Source: Salinisphaera sp. LB1 (GTDB lineage Bacteria > Pseudomonadota > Gammaproteobacteria > Nevskiales > Salinisphaeraceae). From it: a stretch of 64,000 nt of DNA. Shown here in pieces: positions 16,778-22,782 of this stretch. Position 1 is the stretch's first letter; the number at the start of each line of letters is the position of its first letter. The stretch covers positions 682,001-746,000 of the forward strand of contig NZ_CP029488.1 of NCBI RefSeq assembly GCF_003177035.1, read 5' to 3'. Both the position numbers and the translations under genes were made by a program. The notes below the pieces were generated by a model, which did not search any database, had not been told where the DNA came from, and was given only the letters and a program-made list of their open reading frames with translations.

Positions 16778-17152
16778 TCAGGCGCGCCCGGTCAACAGAG
16801 TGACGGCGTAACCGAGAACGATATCCAGCGCCCAGATGAACGCCGCAAGGATCAGAACGAACACCACGACGAGCAGCGTGGTCTGCATGGTTTCGCGGCG
16901 CGTCGGCCACACCATGCGCCGCAATTCGGTGCGCGACCCCTGGACATACGACCATGCCGTCCGGCCAAGCGCCGACTGGAAGGCGATCAGCGCCGCCACC
17001 ACGACACCGGCCAGCATGCCCAGCACGCGAACCACGTCGGTGTACGCCGTGAAATAGTAGTAGCCGGCGATGCTGGCGATCAGCACCACTATGGCCAGCC
17101 ATAGCAGCGCCGTGTCTAGCGCGCTTGCCGTGCGTTGTTCGGAGGTTGCCAT
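16778..17152 (-). CDS. secE: Preprotein translocase subunit SecE
   Basis: A 124-residue membrane protein with three hydrophobic segments (about residues 14-34, 40-60 and 91-117), like the long enteric SecE. The conserved amphipathic stretch [14 protein letters not shown] precedes the last segment. It clamps SecY in the SecYEG channel. It lies 40 nt after tRNA-Trp in the same transcription unit. Confidence 0.96.
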
Positions 17153-17192
17153 CGACTACTCGACCGAAGACGAAAAACCGTGCGCCTAAAAG

Positions 17193-17268
<76 letters not shown>

Positions 17269-17307
17269 AGACGCAAACTTTCTTCTTTACCACGAAAAAG
17301 ATCGCGG

Positions 17308-17335
17308 ATGGTACCACAGATCGCGGGCTTGGCAA
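17308..17335 (-). promoter_or_regulatory. Promoter for tRNA-Trp-secE-nusG
   Basis: Reverse strand TTGCCA (17330-17335), 16 nt, TACCAT (17308-17313) preceded by TG one base before, giving an extended -10. The start would fall about 35 nt before the mature tRNA-Trp. A second TGG-TATCAT lies about 42 nt further upstream and may be an alternative -10. Confidence 0.6.
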
Positions 17336-17369
17336 CTCGCACAGCCATGATACCAGACCTTGAAGCCTA

Positions 17370-17402
17370 ATCGGCCCGCGACGCGTCACGCCGCGGGCCG
17401 AT
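17370..17402 (-). terminator. Strong hairpin after tuf copy 2
   Basis: An 11-bp perfect stem (ATCGGCCCGCG / CGCGGGCCGAT) with an 11-nt loop begins 26 nt after the tuf stop codon. There is no U-tract, so it may be a Rho-independent-like pause site or an mRNA-stabilising 3' end rather than a classical terminator. Confidence 0.55.
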
Positions 17403-17428
17403 CAGGCGACAGCCTTAGCGCTAATGCC

Positions 17429-18619
17429 TCAGGCCGTAATTTTGGTCACGACGCCCGCACCCACGGTGCGACCGCCTTCACGAATGGCGAAGCGCAGGCC
17501 TTCTTCCATCGCAATCGGATGTATGAGCTCGACGTTCATCGTCACGTTGTCGCCCGGCATCACCATCTCGGTGTCCGCCGGCAGCTCGCAAGCGCCCGTC
17601 ACGTCCGTCGTCCGGAAGTAGAACTGCGGACGATAGCCCTTGAAGAACGGCGTGTGGCGACCGCCCTCTTCCTTCTTCAGCACGTACACTTCGCATTCGA
17701 AGTTGGTGTGCGGCGTGATCGAGCCCGGCTTGGCCAGCACCTGGCCACGCTCGATGTCTTCGCGCTTGGTGCCGCGCAGCAGCGCGCCGATGTTGTCACC
17801 CGCCTGACCCTGGTCCAGCAGCTTGCGGAACATCTCGACGCCGGTGACGGTGGTCTTGGTCGTGGGGTTGATACCCACGATTTCGATGTCGTCACCCACG
17901 TTGATCACGCCGCGCTCGACACGACCGGTGGCGACCGTGCCACGACCGGAGATCGAGAAGACGTCCTCGACCGGCATCAGGAAGGCGCCGTCCACGGCAC
18001 GCTCGGGGTCGGGAATGAATTCGTCCATGGCCCGCACGAGCTTGGCGATCGATTCCGATCCGTGCTCGCCTTCGTCGCCTTCCAGTGCCTTGAGCGCACT
18101 GCCGACAATCACCGGGGTGTCGTCGCCCGGGAAGTCGTAGGCGTCCAGCAGTTCGCGGACTTCCATTTCCACCAGCTCGAGCAGCTCTTCGTCGTCCACC
18201 ATGTCGGCCTTGTTCAGGTACACGACGATGAACGGCACGCCCACCTGGCGCGCCAGCAGAATGTGCTCGCGCGTCTGCGGCATGGGGCCGTCGGCCGCCG
18301 ACACGACCAGGATCGCGCCGTCCATCTGCGCAGCACCCGTGATCATGTTCTTGACGTAGTCCGCATGCCCCGGGCAGTCCACGTGCGCATAGTGACGCGC
18401 TTCGCTCTCGTACTCGACGTGCGAGGTGGAGATCGTGATGCCACGCGCCTTTTCTTCCGGCGCCTTGTCGATGGCATCAAACGCCGACAGCTCTGAACCG
18501 AACAACCGGTTCGACACCACCGTCAGCGCGGCCGTCAGCGTCGTCTTACCATGGTCCACGTGACCAATCGTGCCGACGTTGACGTGCGGCTTGTTACGCT
18601 CGAATTTTGATTTGGACAT
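17429..18619 (-). CDS. tuf: Elongation factor Tu, copy 2 (tRNA cluster)
   Basis: A 396-residue EF-Tu with exactly the same amino-acid sequence as the copy at 697-1887. The start is the ATG at 18617-18619 ([16 protein letters not shown]); a longer frame upstream to 18715 has no EF-Tu homology and runs through the leader. It follows tRNA-Thr(GGT), as tufB does in E. coli. The near-identity to copy 1 stops within a few bases of the stop codon and at the start codon, which suggests recent gene conversion limited to the coding region. Confidence 0.98.
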
Positions 18620-18725
18620 TGCCTCGCCTTTCGCCGTTGGGCCTGCGTATATCAACCGAGACGCGCACAGTTCGTAGAACTGACGCCTCGACACCAAAAC
18701 GCGGGCGATGCACACCCGCCTGACT

Positions 18726-18800
18726 TGGAGCCCATGACCGGAGTTGAACCGGTGACCTCATCCTTACCAAGGATGTGCTCTACCTCTGAGCTACATGGGC
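18726..18800 (-). tRNA. tRNA-Thr (anticodon GGT)
   Basis: Reverse strand cloverleaf with acceptor GCCCATG / CATGGGC, anticodon loop TTGGTAA, T-loop GGTTCAACTCC and encoded CCA. It corresponds in position to thrT of E. coli, immediately before tuf. Confidence 0.97.
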
Positions 18801-18836
18801 TAAGCAAATTGTCACCCAGGACGCCGCATTGCGACC

Positions 18837-18910
18837 TGGAGCGGGCGACCGGAATCGAACCGGCATCATCAGCTTGGAAGGCTGAGGTTCTACCGTTGAA
18901 CTACGCCCGC
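18837..18910 (-). tRNA. tRNA-Gly (anticodon TCC)
   Basis: Reverse strand cloverleaf with acceptor GCGGGCG / CGCCCGC, anticodon loop CTTCCAA, T-loop GGTTCGATTCC and encoded CCA. It is 36 nt upstream of tRNA-Thr(GGT) and matches glyT of the E. coli thrU-tyrU-glyT-thrT-tufB unit. Confidence 0.97.
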
Positions 18911-19070
18911 ACGCTCAACGCCGACAAACTCTCGCCAATCACTGCGCGCAATGCAAGCGCAGACAATCGACGCTGGCTCGATCCGATACGATCGAAGCCG
19001 GGCACGCCGACTTCGAAGCGCAAGGCCCCGACACCGCACCGCGGATTCGAAGCCTGAACTGCTCACCTGA

Positions 19071-19243
19071 TGGCGGAAGGAGGATGACTCGCCGCTTCGC
19101 GTCTCGCCCTTCGGGCCGGCGTCGCTTCGCTCCGCCGTTCTCGCGCTGCGCGCTCGTCGAACCTCTCGGTTCGAACCCTCCTCGGTCCCAGTCCCGCGTC
19201 GCCGCGGGCCACCAGTTGTTGCTTACTCTTTCCTTTGTTCGGT
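19071..19243 (-). repeat. tRNA-Tyr-tail repeat, distal unit (diverged)
   Basis: This 173-bp unit carries a diverged copy of the tRNA-Tyr 3' end at 19071-19089 and the shared block GGTTCGAACC at 19168-19177, as well as arms rich in gcttcgcc-type sequence. Its order matches the unit at 19244-19421. It lies between tRNA-Tyr and tRNA-Gly on the transcribed strand, so each tRNA-Tyr precursor would carry it. No protein reading is supported. Confidence 0.75.
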
Positions 19244-19421
19244 TGGTGGAGGGAGGAGGATTATTCGCGGCTTCGCCGCTCACCCTTCGGGCCGGTCGCG
19301 TGCCGCGACCGTTCTCGGTCGCTTCGCGCCCTCGTCGAACCTCTATCGGTTCGAACCCTCCTCGGTCTAACTCCGTGCCAACCAGATGTCTGTGTTGTCG
19401 TTACCTGCGTCGATATTCAAA
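19244..19421 (-). repeat. tRNA-Tyr-tail repeat, proximal unit (178 bp)
   Basis: Bases 19244-19262 are an exact 19-bp copy of the 3' end of tRNA-Tyr (19422-19440, including the CCA); the two copies are 178 bp apart. Inside the unit is GGTTCGAACC (19348-19357), which resembles a T-arm, within a block that the distal unit shares. E. coli tyrT is followed by 178-bp repeats that each contain 19 bp of the tRNA-Tyr 3' end, so the layout is strikingly alike. The role is unknown. Confidence 0.85.
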
Positions 19422-19506
19422 TGGTGGAGGGAGGAGGATTCGAACCTCCGAAGGCTGAGCCGACAGATTTACAGTCTGTTCCCTTTGACCGCTTGGGTAT
19501 CCCTCC
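19422..19506 (-). tRNA. tRNA-Tyr (anticodon GTA)
   Basis: Reverse strand 85-nt tRNA with acceptor GGAGGGA / TCCCTCC, anticodon loop CTGTAAA, a long class II variable arm and encoded CCA. It is the first tRNA after its own promoter and heads the tRNA-Tyr - repeat - tRNA-Gly - tRNA-Thr - tuf unit. Confidence 0.97.
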
Positions 19507-19519
19507 ACGAGAGCCGCGC

Positions 19520-19548
19520 ATTGTTGTGAATCCAGACACGGTTGTCAA
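19520..19548 (-). promoter_or_regulatory. Promoter of tRNA-Tyr-Gly-Thr-tuf unit
   Basis: Reverse strand TTGACA (19543-19548), 17-nt spacer, AACAAT (19520-19525), then GCGCGGC before the mature tRNA 5' end at 19506. The GC-rich discriminator after the -10 is typical of stringently controlled stable-RNA promoters. Confidence 0.72.
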
Positions 19549-19646
19549 CCGCGAATTTGTCACCCGCCCGCGCGTGGCCGGCACACCGCGTTCACGCATT
19601 TCACCGACGCGACAGGCCCTAGGCGCATATGCGCTCGGGCGCGTGG

Positions 19647-20648
19647 CTAGTAGTAGATATTGAAAGCGGCCTGCGGTGTGACCGCGTCCCCCGTATTACG
19701 GCCGGCAACCACCACGTCAGCGCCGACAATGACACCGTAATGGCTGTTCCAGTTGTATTCGATGGCCGGCGCGACATCGACTGCCTCGCTGGCATTGGCA
19801 TTCGTGTTGACGGCGGTCACGAGCCCATTGCTGGCCTGAACCCCGCGCACCGAATTACCTCCGGAATGGCTGTAAATGACGTCCACGGCCGGCGCCCAAT
19901 GGCGCGTCATGCTGTACTCGAAGGCCAGATCGGCGGAAAACGTGTTGCCGGCATCAACCGTGCCGTTGAAGCCGCGGCCGGTACCGTAGACGCTGACGCC
20001 GTTCACCGAGGCGTTGTCATCGGGAATGGTGTAGGTCAGATCGAGGCGAGAGCGCAGAATCCGCCCGTTCGGCATCCAGAAATAATCCTGGGTGAACAAA
20101 CCGAGAGTGCTGGTCAGAAGGCCGCTGCCCAGCCCGTTCGCCGGATGGTCGCCCAACCCATCGTACTTACCGGTCGGAAAGACTTCCGAGAACGCCAGCG
20201 CCGTGGTCGGCAACCAGCTGCCTTCGTGAAAAGCGTGCAACATGTACTGGAAGCGCAGCTTGGTGTCACCAAGCCTCACCCCCTGACTATCAGCGCCATT
20301 CTCGACCACGTTGTAGCCGAACTCCGGCAGCACGGCGACCAATAGCCTGTTGGTCAGGCCGTATTCCAGCAGTGAGACCGAGCGCAGCGCATGAACGTTC
20401 GGCGTGTTGTGGCTGTGCCAGTTATCGTCGTAGTGGCCGTGCTGAATTGAATCCAGCACATAGGGCTCTATATCCCAGTGCCCTTGCGGCAGCGAGGTCG
20501 CGTTGGGCGCCGCGAGCGGCCCAGTGAACAAGGCGTCGCCGAGCGATTGACGCGAGGCGCCGGCGGCCATCGCGCCAGCGCTCGCCTGCGCCAGCGTCAA
20601 CGCGAGGCCCGCACAGATAGCGGCGCGATTGATGGTTCTCCTCGACAT
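19647..20648 (-). CDS. Outer-membrane beta-barrel protein (MetA-pathway channel-like)
   Basis: A 333-residue protein with a Sec signal peptide (positive MSRRTINR, then a hydrophobic stretch and an ASAGAMAAG-type cleavage site near residue 29), alternating-residue beta strands, and a C-terminal aromatic residue (FNIYY), all typical of outer-membrane barrels. The sequence suggests the family annotated as transporter / MetA-pathway phenol-degradation outer-membrane protein; the substrate is unknown. The start is the ATG 20646-20648 because AGAGGTG lies 7 nt upstream; the in-frame GTG 9 nt earlier overlaps it. It lies behind the permease at 20823-22439 and both are inserted between two tRNA genes. 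Confidence 0.8.
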   Translation of the reverse strand: MSRRTINRAAICAGLALTLAQASAGAMAAGASRQSLGDALFTGPLAAPNATSLPQGHWDIEPYVLDSIQHGHYDDNWHSHNTPNVHALRSVSLLEYGLTNRLLVAVLPEFGYNVVENGADSQGVRLGDTKLRFQYMLHAFHEGSWLPTTALAFSEVFPTGKYDGLGDHPANGLGSGLLTSTLGLFTQDYFWMPNGRILRSRLDLTYTIPDDNASVNGVSVYGTGRGFNGTVDAGNTFSADLAFEYSMTRHWAPAVDVIYSHSGGNSVRGVQASNGLVTAVNTNANASEAVDVAPAIEYNWNSHYGVIVGADVVVAGRNTGDAVTPQAAFNIYY

Positions 20649-22706: not shown

Positions 22707-22782
22707 TGGAGCCCGCGACCGGAGTCGAACCGATGACCTGCTGTTTACAAGACAGCTGCTCTACCAACTGAGCTACGCGGGC
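22707..22782 (-). tRNA. tRNA-Thr (anticodon TGT)
   Basis: Reverse strand cloverleaf with acceptor GCCCGCG / CGCGGGC, anticodon loop CTTGTAA, T-loop GGTTCGACTCC and encoded CCA. It matches thrU of E. coli, but here it is separated from tRNA-Tyr by about 3.2 kb with two protein genes. Confidence 0.97.

Follow-up and report, generated by a model that had tools for sequence, protein, structure and literature searches.

The chromosome of Salinisphaera sp. LB1 contains a tRNA-Tyr gene followed by repeats that end like the tRNA itself. It lies in a stretch of 64,000 nucleotides that was analysed as a whole (the window; positions 682,001 to 746,000 of NZ_CP029488.1). Repeats of this kind are familiar from the tyrT locus of Escherichia coli, where the tRNA transcript gives rise to a stable ~171-nt RNA with CCA, the rtT RNA. 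The locus raises three connected questions: whether its repeats are the same element, what determines the sequence of their tRNA-like ends, and whether they are better understood as RNA or as spacer DNA.

The tRNA-Tyr locus

The tRNA-Tyr gene lies on the minus strand, and the repeats, at lower coordinates, are therefore downstream of it (Table 1). An earlier note on this DNA had described repeat units that each end in the tRNA's own 3' end, and two such units are indeed present on the minus strand. The last 19 nt of tRNA-Tyr (AATCCTCCTCCCTCCACCA, 19440-19422) recur without mismatch at 19262-19244; the start-to-start distance is 178 bp, as that note had given it, and these are the only two exact occurrences of AATCCTCCTCCCTCCACCA in the window. 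The further, diverged copy that it had placed 173 bp beyond was found at 19086-19068 (15/19 identical), at a spacing of 176 bp, and its statement that each unit has CCA at the end does not hold for unit 2, which encodes CCATCA. Aligned with each other over their RtT-matched parts, a check that the note had proposed, the two units have 108 of 137 columns in common.

The cluster runs in the order tRNA-Tyr, unit 1, unit 2, tRNA-Gly(TCC), tRNA-Thr(GGT), EF-Tu-like ORF and tRNA-Trp. The previously suggested thrU-tyrU-glyT-thrT-tufB type of cluster is thus present in its tyrU-glyT-thrT-tuf part, but the tRNA-Thr(TGT) of the thrU position (22707-22782) is not adjacent: it lies ~3.2 kb upstream of tRNA-Tyr, with ORFs between. 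A scan of 17150-19800 yielded 2 promoter-like sites against 0.5 expected from shuffles. A sequence scan found no terminator-like site between tRNA-Tyr and tRNA-Thr; one is located at 18719-18701, between tRNA-Thr and tuf, and the 2 such sites found against 2.3 expected are at chance level. Because a promoter-like site precedes tRNA-Tyr and no terminator-like site intervenes up to tRNA-Thr, the units most likely lie within the tRNA transcript. Such a Tyr-Gly-Thr transcript would carry both units in its spacer and perhaps continue into tuf.

Table 1. Features of the tRNA-Tyr locus of Salinisphaera sp. LB1, in window coordinates
Feature	Position	Strand	Basis or remark
Sigma-70-like promoter TTGACA-17-AACAAT, just upstream of tRNA-Tyr	19520..19548	minus	consensus match only
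tRNA-Tyr(GTA), host tRNA	19422..19506	minus	ARAGORN and Rfam tRNA
Repeat unit 1, 178 bp, from tRNA end to end of tail copy	19244..19421	minus	RtT match 19244-19377
Unit 1 P1, 5' strand GAGGAGGGT	19355..19363	minus	antisense to tRNA 3' end; pairs with own tail, one G-U; MFE
Unit 1 P2: TCGAACC (19354-19348), loop, GGTTCGA (19341-19335)	19335..19354	minus	T-arm-like start of core; MFE
Unit 1 core, AGGTTCGACG - H1 - H2 - CCCGAAGGG - YGA/H3/GAR - TA	19263..19342	minus	
Unit 1 H4, hairpin CCC-GAA-GGG	19283..19291	minus	GNA loop, nearly invariant in family
Unit 1 H3, covarying Y-R pair and tandem G.A/A.G TGAGCGGCGAAGCCGCGAA	19264..19282	minus	
Unit 1 tail, exact 19-nt copy of tRNA-Tyr 3' end including CCA	19244..19262	minus	
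Repeat unit 2, 176 bp, anatomy as unit 1	19068..19243	minus	RtT match 19068-19197 and fold
Unit 2 tail, 15/19 identical to tRNA end, ends CCATCA	19068..19086	minus	
tRNA-Gly(TCC), next gene after unit 2, same direction	18837..18910	minus	ARAGORN
tRNA-Thr(GGT)	18726..18800	minus	ARAGORN
EF-Tu-like ORF	17429-18715		name from reading of translation

Identity of the two units

Scored against the Rfam model of RtT (RF00391; curated cut-off 45), unit 1 reaches 65.9 bits (E = 8.7e-12) and unit 2 59.3 bits (E = 3.8e-10). In alignments of 146 to 149 columns with the four copies at E. coli tyrT, unit 1 agrees in 97 to 104, which, together with the Rfam match, shows homology to these repeats, with which the earlier note had compared the units. 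In E. coli an RtT element follows both tRNA-Tyr genes of the tyrT locus and is annotated 'RtT sRNA'. By the precedent of rtT RNA, release of a stable RNA of ~175 nt from the window units is plausible. The E. coli elements are also known as tRNA-linked repeats (TLRs), whose 3' end consists of 18-19 bp identical to the upstream tRNA or rRNA, as described in the parts of PMC8144298 drawn on here. Unit 1 is identical to the tRNA just upstream at 19/19 positions; unit 2, at 15/19, falls short of such a tail and passes the RtT model nonetheless. We regard it as near certain that unit 1 is an RtT/TLR element, and equally so that unit 2 is one in the form of a diverged copy.

Units elsewhere in the genome and genus

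The Rfam model gives four matches in the LB1 genome, two of them under the cut-off, at tRNA-Arg(CCG) (30.7 bits) and tRNA-Gln(TTG) (43.3 bits). With these further matches after tRNA-Gln and tRNA-Arg, the reading of the window repeats as a lone tyrT case was dropped. A covariance model of core and tail, R1, was built from 27 of the 31 listed cores (L019, L024, L025 and L030 were left out; L005 and L016 had been omitted earlier). Its searches used a structure with the T-stem shifted by one column, and the pair counts given below use the corrected structure. R1 finds 16 matches in the LB1 genome at E <= 1e-3, which are read as 15 units at seven tRNA loci (Tyr, four Arg and two Gln): two at Tyr, one at Arg-CCG, four at Arg-TCG, two each at Arg-ACG and Arg-TCT, one at Gln-TTG, two degenerate tRNA-Gln bodies whose T-loop holds the core, and a split unit after Gln-CTG. 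The present Rfam cut-off recovers 2 of the 15, a warning for annotation. The Gln(CTG) unit is interrupted by ~2.4 kb of inserted DNA that has TGT...ACA ends and is probably an insertion sequence (G000:C1:2595200-2597750; L048, L049). Between tRNA-Arg and its units, terminator-like hairpins with T-runs are seen by eye, recurring with each unit (L004:1500-1683, minus strand, and others).

Among 61 relatives, LB1 included, 20 have an RtT match at E <= 0.01 and 11 are above the cut-off. The ten genus-mates with an RtT match were searched with R1 and hold 4 to 17 matches each, 92 in total (the genus-mates without an RtT match are G001, G002 and G009). Parsing by regular expression misses units, with 54 parsed in the genus set versus 92 + 16 R1 matches, and the tail, arm, isotype and core-exchange counts that follow cover parsed units only.

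Distribution across class and phylum

Of 369 genomes sampled from the class, 149 have an R1 match at E <= 0.01. A phylum-wide sample of 398 gave 73 with a match at E <= 1e-4, 34 from the same class and 39 from outside it, 36 of the latter in the Mariprofundus family (f211). The identity of f211 follows from its genome G522, whose best match agrees in place and score with that of the genome holding the Mariprofundus contig L145. Unit numbers are lower bounds, since the filters were strict and about ten candidates were scored per genome. A pattern scan of named genomes returned at least 118 stretches; among the 80 listed titles, 76 are gammaproteobacterial by reading and four are not, these being from Acidimicrobiales (L122), Mariprofundus (L145), Oligoflexia (L149) and Nitrospinota (L161). 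R1 scores the Oligoflexia stretch at 30.5 bits and the Nitrospinota stretch at 45.9 bits. The Acidimicrobiales stretch fits the pattern but has no R1 match at E <= 0.001, and was rejected as probably due to chance.

Units accompany ten isotypes, namely Tyr, Gln, Ser, Arg, Lys, Pro, Glu, Thr, Asp and Trp (the Trp tail was compared by eye), and an eleventh, tRNA-Gly in G477, is weaker. G477, a genome of the same phylum outside the class (family f226; L287, L291), has RtT-like units after tRNA-Gly(CCC) and tRNA-Trp(CCA); the tail of the Trp unit fits its tRNA by eye, that of the Gly unit in part only. A survey of relatives, as proposed by the earlier note, covered 43 units after tRNA-Tyr. In 17 of them the next tRNA gene is tRNA-Gly(TCC) (one in LB1, six in the genus, one in the same order, two in the same class, three in Cellvibrionales and four in Enterobacterales); a second tRNA-Tyr follows in 7 cases in Enterobacterales and 1 in E. 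coli (L005), and in the remaining 18 either no tRNA follows within 900 bp or the contig ends. Since 17/43 Tyr units precede tRNA-Gly(TCC), the window arrangement is one common form of a widespread association. The choice offered earlier, between a conserved structure and one that arose twice, is too narrow for a core that follows ten tRNA kinds and a Tyr-Gly placement that is widespread.

At L190:6900-7400, two tandem RtT-like units carry a tail, ATCCCGACCTCGATCAG, that differs from the ends of all tRNAs detected on the stretch examined there. In G433 and G464, weak matches were rejected as TLRs, no tRNA being found around the six copies examined (three per genome). G433 (same phylum, family f212) contains a dispersed repeat with the layout H1-H2-CCCGNAGGG-YGA/H3/GAR, like that of the RtT core (examples L288:1501-1592 and L292:1501-1592; L289:1501-1597 in G464). 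A pattern allowing up to 3 mismatches finds 115 copies in G433 and 29 in G464, and 0 when reversed. The Y-R pair of the G464 repeat occurs in both C-G and T-A forms, and no Rfam family scores above cut-off at the repeat copies of either genome.

Tails and arms match the host tRNA

The sequences show a common plan: a conserved structural core with a stretch matching the host tRNA on either side. Parsing gave 175 units, 137 of them with a tRNA at most 1.2 kb upstream, and the tail comparison used those no more than 110 bp from their tRNA, 105 of 106 after removal of a duplicate. The 17-nt tail is identical to the unit's own tRNA in 89 of 105 units and to tRNAs of other isotypes in 0 of 8180 comparisons; the own tRNA is strictly the best match in 102 of the 105 and tied in 2. 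At 29 further loci, a tRNA is present upstream in 25, and at least 18 of 19 tail nucleotides are shared in 22 of those. Two tRNA-Asp units copy the AGTCC of tRNA-Asp where the others have AATCC.

The second stretch is a 5' arm, located before the core, which is antisense to the 3' part of the same tRNA. Its local alignment scores average 13.9 on the own tRNA versus 9.4 on other isotypes (104 of the 105 units were kept). The arm reaches at least the 95th percentile on its own tRNA in 79/104 units and beats every other-isotype tRNA in 73. Broken down by isotype, the 95th percentile is reached in 37/43 units for Tyr, 20/21 for Gln, 8/8 for Lys, 8/19 for Ser and 4/9 for Arg, and in the small groups in 1/2 for Pro, 1/1 for Thr and 0/1 for Glu. 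Arm scores on the own anticodon versus another anticodon of the same isotype are 14.7 vs 9.2 for Gln, 12.8 vs 10.8 for Arg and 13.5 vs 12.1 for Ser: the margin is clear for Gln and smaller for Arg and Ser, where the arm barely tells anticodons apart. Tyr and Gln arms chiefly cover the 3' strand of acceptor and T-stem and can pair with the unit's own tail (helix P1), whereas Arg and Ser arms chiefly cover the T-arm and variable loop.

A proposed tRNA-like end for a probably co-transcribed RNA

The reading that we prefer, with a probability of roughly 60% and on the strength of structure and E. coli precedent, is that the units are co-transcribed RNA with a closing helix resembling the acceptor and T-stem, whose copied tail would let tRNA enzymes finish the end. 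The 5' arm and the 3' tail (sense, from T-loop to CCA) would pair into P1, which would look like a tRNA's acceptor/T-stem end, CCA overhang included. This mimicry might allow tRNA-processing enzymes to cut the unit free and complete it as an independent RNA of ~130-175 nt. The flanks would be kept matched to the local tRNA by selection for P1 together with local recombination between the short tail repeats; the same tail repeats would let units multiply in tandem, and cores would now and then be exchanged between tRNA loci. For processing, a generic acceptor end would be enough, so recombination, not selection, may lie behind the exact match to the own tRNA. Unit 2, without an exact CCA end, counts against release, and some tRNA-Arg units, those with a terminator-like T-run seen by eye between tRNA and unit, would need read-through.

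Core structure: RNA or spacer DNA

The units could instead be selfish or neutral spacer DNA with no RNA function: tandem duplications of the tRNA 3' end maintained by slippage and gene conversion, their hairpins shaped at the DNA level by template switching at the palindromic T-arm. Exact tails, a unit number that varies per locus, the sense-antisense-sense layout and helices low in G-U are all in keeping with such an origin, and so are tRNA genes with the core in the T-loop, which look like deletions between repeated GGTTCGA. Units also look dispensable, occurring in 149/369 class genomes (a lower bound under strict filters). The core, however, has four hairpins with many compensatory changes, also in a second class, which argues against this origin. 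In a 27-unit alignment (26 distinct), 88.5% of cells pair under the corrected structure, and the covariation score is 0.442 versus 0.156 for shuffled alignments and 0.049-0.089 for slid partners; for two of the five covariation measures, some shuffles did as well (6 and 29 of 500). RNAalifold alone proposes H2, H4 and part of H3, and does not propose H1. Among 134 distinct matches, in an alignment fitted to the model, all four Watson-Crick types are represented at many pairs of H1, H2 and H3.

Two details of H3 also argue for RNA over spacer DNA. Tandem GA is kept in 120/134 matches, and the Y-R pair is C-G in 61, U-A in 58, U-G in 9 and C-A in 0 (128 of 134 paired, U-G included), as expected of RNA on this strand. 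The loop of H4 is GNA in 131/134. Tandem GA in RtT has been noted before (in the part of PMC7657543 consulted), and the last hairpin of unit 1 has it, as TGA...GAA. G-U cells outnumber A-C cells by 42 vs 25 over H1-H4, and the counts are 14 vs 15 in H1 alone. In the arm, a strand test on substitutions gave 30 vs 19, 28 vs 14, 24 vs 12 and 10 vs 11 at thresholds 7 to 10 (p = 0.15, 0.044, 0.065 and 1.0). This stricter test replaced a looser one with wobble credit, which gave 145 vs 243, against the RNA strand, with an uninformative control (a mean of 101.6/175 units passed with foreign tails). The strand evidence for RNA from the G-U/A-C and arm counts is modest.

R1 matches unit 1 over 19244-19342 with 100 bits. 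The predicted fold of unit 1 (-60.3 kcal/mol, z -3.7) contains P1, P2, H4 and H3; in the MFE structure its H1/H2 stretch pairs unlike the family consensus, and H1 and H2 are assigned by consensus. The fold of unit 2, at -57.8 kcal/mol (z -2.4; 4/200 shuffles as low), is moderately good only. L003, L004 and L107 give z of -7.0, -5.6 and -8.3, L107 with every predicted helix and L003 partly rearranged. Taken together, spacer DNA without RNA function is a serious but rather unlikely account of the units.

Arm pairing and a possible cis switch

An arm that pairs with either the 3' half of the tRNA or the tail copy could act in cis: the emerging tail would free the tRNA and thereby time its folding and 3' maturation. 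This would explain the need for a tail equal to the tRNA end. The arms are antisense to the tRNA end, and many Tyr and Gln arms also complement the tail copy; the arm of window unit 1 fits both, with one G-U pair, and some Ser, Gln and Arg arms are complementary to 15-20 contiguous tRNA nucleotides. In favour of the closing helix of the preferred reading, a P1 arm with a score of at least 8 is found in 80 of 175 units, compared with a mean of 16 (maximum 22) when tails of other isotypes are used. By isotype, it is found in 41/58 units for Tyr, 18/23 for Gln, 1/16 for Arg and 2/26 for Ser. P1 alone cannot explain the Arg and Ser tails, as it is absent or weak in most of these units. Against a switch, most Arg and Ser arms in this set do not match the acceptor part of the tail, yet the tails stay identical; moreover, later tandem units lie 250-620 nt from the tRNA. 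We consider a cis switch improbable.

Probable exchange of cores between tRNA loci

The core might also be a small mobile element that inserts at T-loops, comparable to tRNA-targeting integrase sites, with the tail as the displaced 3' end of the tRNA. The core does lie between GGTTCGA and AATCC, in what would be the T-loop, and some tRNA bodies carry it there. Of 307 structures of the form T-loop/core/T-loop, skipping the core recovers a tRNA in 18. In twelve of these a tRNA is simply followed by its unit, in another five the tRNA body itself carries the core in its T-loop, and L087 is ambiguous. In the T-loop-core bodies (L003 twice, L021, L118 from Kosakonia, and L171), GGTTCGA and AATCC directly border the core; apart from the core, L118 and L171 resemble intact tRNAs (L171 lacks CCA). 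In LB1, core-bearing tRNA bodies are located at G000:C1:332864-332968 and 333153-333254 (L046, L047; also in L003), and L100 and L283 resemble such bodies by eye. Interrupted tRNAs can, however, also come from deletion between repeats, and integration alone leaves the antisense arm unexplained.

The relationships of the cores bear on mobility in both directions. On a poorly resolved tree of 132 cores, 32 isotype changes among the 95 labelled cores would suit an element that moves, as would the dispersal of a similar hairpin module in 115 copies in one other genome (G433). With the 37 unlabelled cores as their own group, the tree has 53 changes, against a minimum of 8 and a shuffled mean of 82 (0/200 shuffles as low); isotype is thus clustered, which speaks against free insertion, but often changing. 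In the genus, where 51 of 54 parsed units were kept, each core was compared with those of the same tRNA in other genomes and those of other tRNAs in its own genome. The same tRNA's core is equally close or closer for 38 of 51, again at odds with mobility, and the other tRNA's core is closer for 13. Some of these 13 are Arg-CCG/TCG pairs, where exchange is easy because the tRNA ends are identical; others join Arg-TCG and Arg-TCT in G013, where the tails differ. The pattern fits descent at the locus with occasional core exchange bounded by the GGTTCGA and AATCC that tRNAs share, and a mobile element inserting at T-loops appears quite improbable.

A protein-coding reading, with a small basic protein made from the units as was once suggested for the tpr frame of the E. 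coli tyrT repeats, is very improbable and was rejected. Long ORFs do run across both strands of the interval, which is usual for GC-rich DNA, but core-plus-tail lengths vary by non-multiples of three (97, 99, 101, 102, 104, 105 and others), and sequence change follows base pairing.

Comparison with known systems

Beyond the preferred reading of a co-transcribed, tRNA-like RNA, a wider and more tentative one can be considered: the RtT core may be a portable RNA domain that colonises many tRNA kinds, has its own tRNA-like end and is also dispersed without tRNAs in the phylum. If this were true, the antisense of the host tRNA's 3' part would serve as the 5' arm and its sense as the CCA tail. Occurrence with ten or more tRNA kinds in at least two classes turns an E. 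coli curiosity into a family with a rule, and the arm-and-tail rule predicts RNA cut sites, the relevant pairings and informative mutants. The element itself is already known; TLRs were first described in 1978, and a function was still lacking as of 2021 (PMC8144298, in part). The antisense rule for the 5' arm was not found in the consulted parts of the RtT/TLR literature searched (PMC8144298, PMC4986893, PMC2965389 and PMC7657543), nor was a spread of TLRs to many isotypes in other orders and to a second class; relative to those papers, the arm-and-tail rule and the isotype and class spread are apparently new.

The closest relative of the window units is rtT RNA (RF00391) of E. coli tyrT, which they resemble in the core, the closing helix, the tRNA-Tyr tail and a tandem period of ~178 bp. 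They differ from it in their position in a Tyr-Gly-Thr-tuf cluster instead of tyrT, and in the diverged tail of unit 2. In Actinobacillus, RtT RNAs have been described beside tRNA-Asn and tRNA-Lys, with bands on Northern blots (PMC4986893, in the part consulted). The 3'ETS-leuZ is likewise a small RNA freed from a tRNA precursor, but its description, in the parts of PMC8144298 drawn on, includes neither a copied tRNA tail nor an RtT core. The TLRs of E. coli K-12, for which the same parts of that paper give 22 copies at ten loci, share with our units the 18-19 bp tRNA-identical end, the association with several tRNAs and the occurrence in one to five copies per locus. E. coli TLRs are also found after 5S rRNA (rrA, rrB and rrF, which bind CsrA and Hfq), where the unit lies between two terminators in a T1-unit-T2 layout; these rrn-linked units give rise to a 173-nt RNA that ends 3 nt beyond the tail copy (PMC8144298, same parts). 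That layout is absent from the window, where the units follow tRNA-Tyr and no terminator-like site occurs up to tRNA-Thr. The terminator-unit arrangement at tRNA-Arg loci, in contrast, resembles the T1-unit-T2 order described for E. coli 5S rRNA in those parts of PMC8144298.
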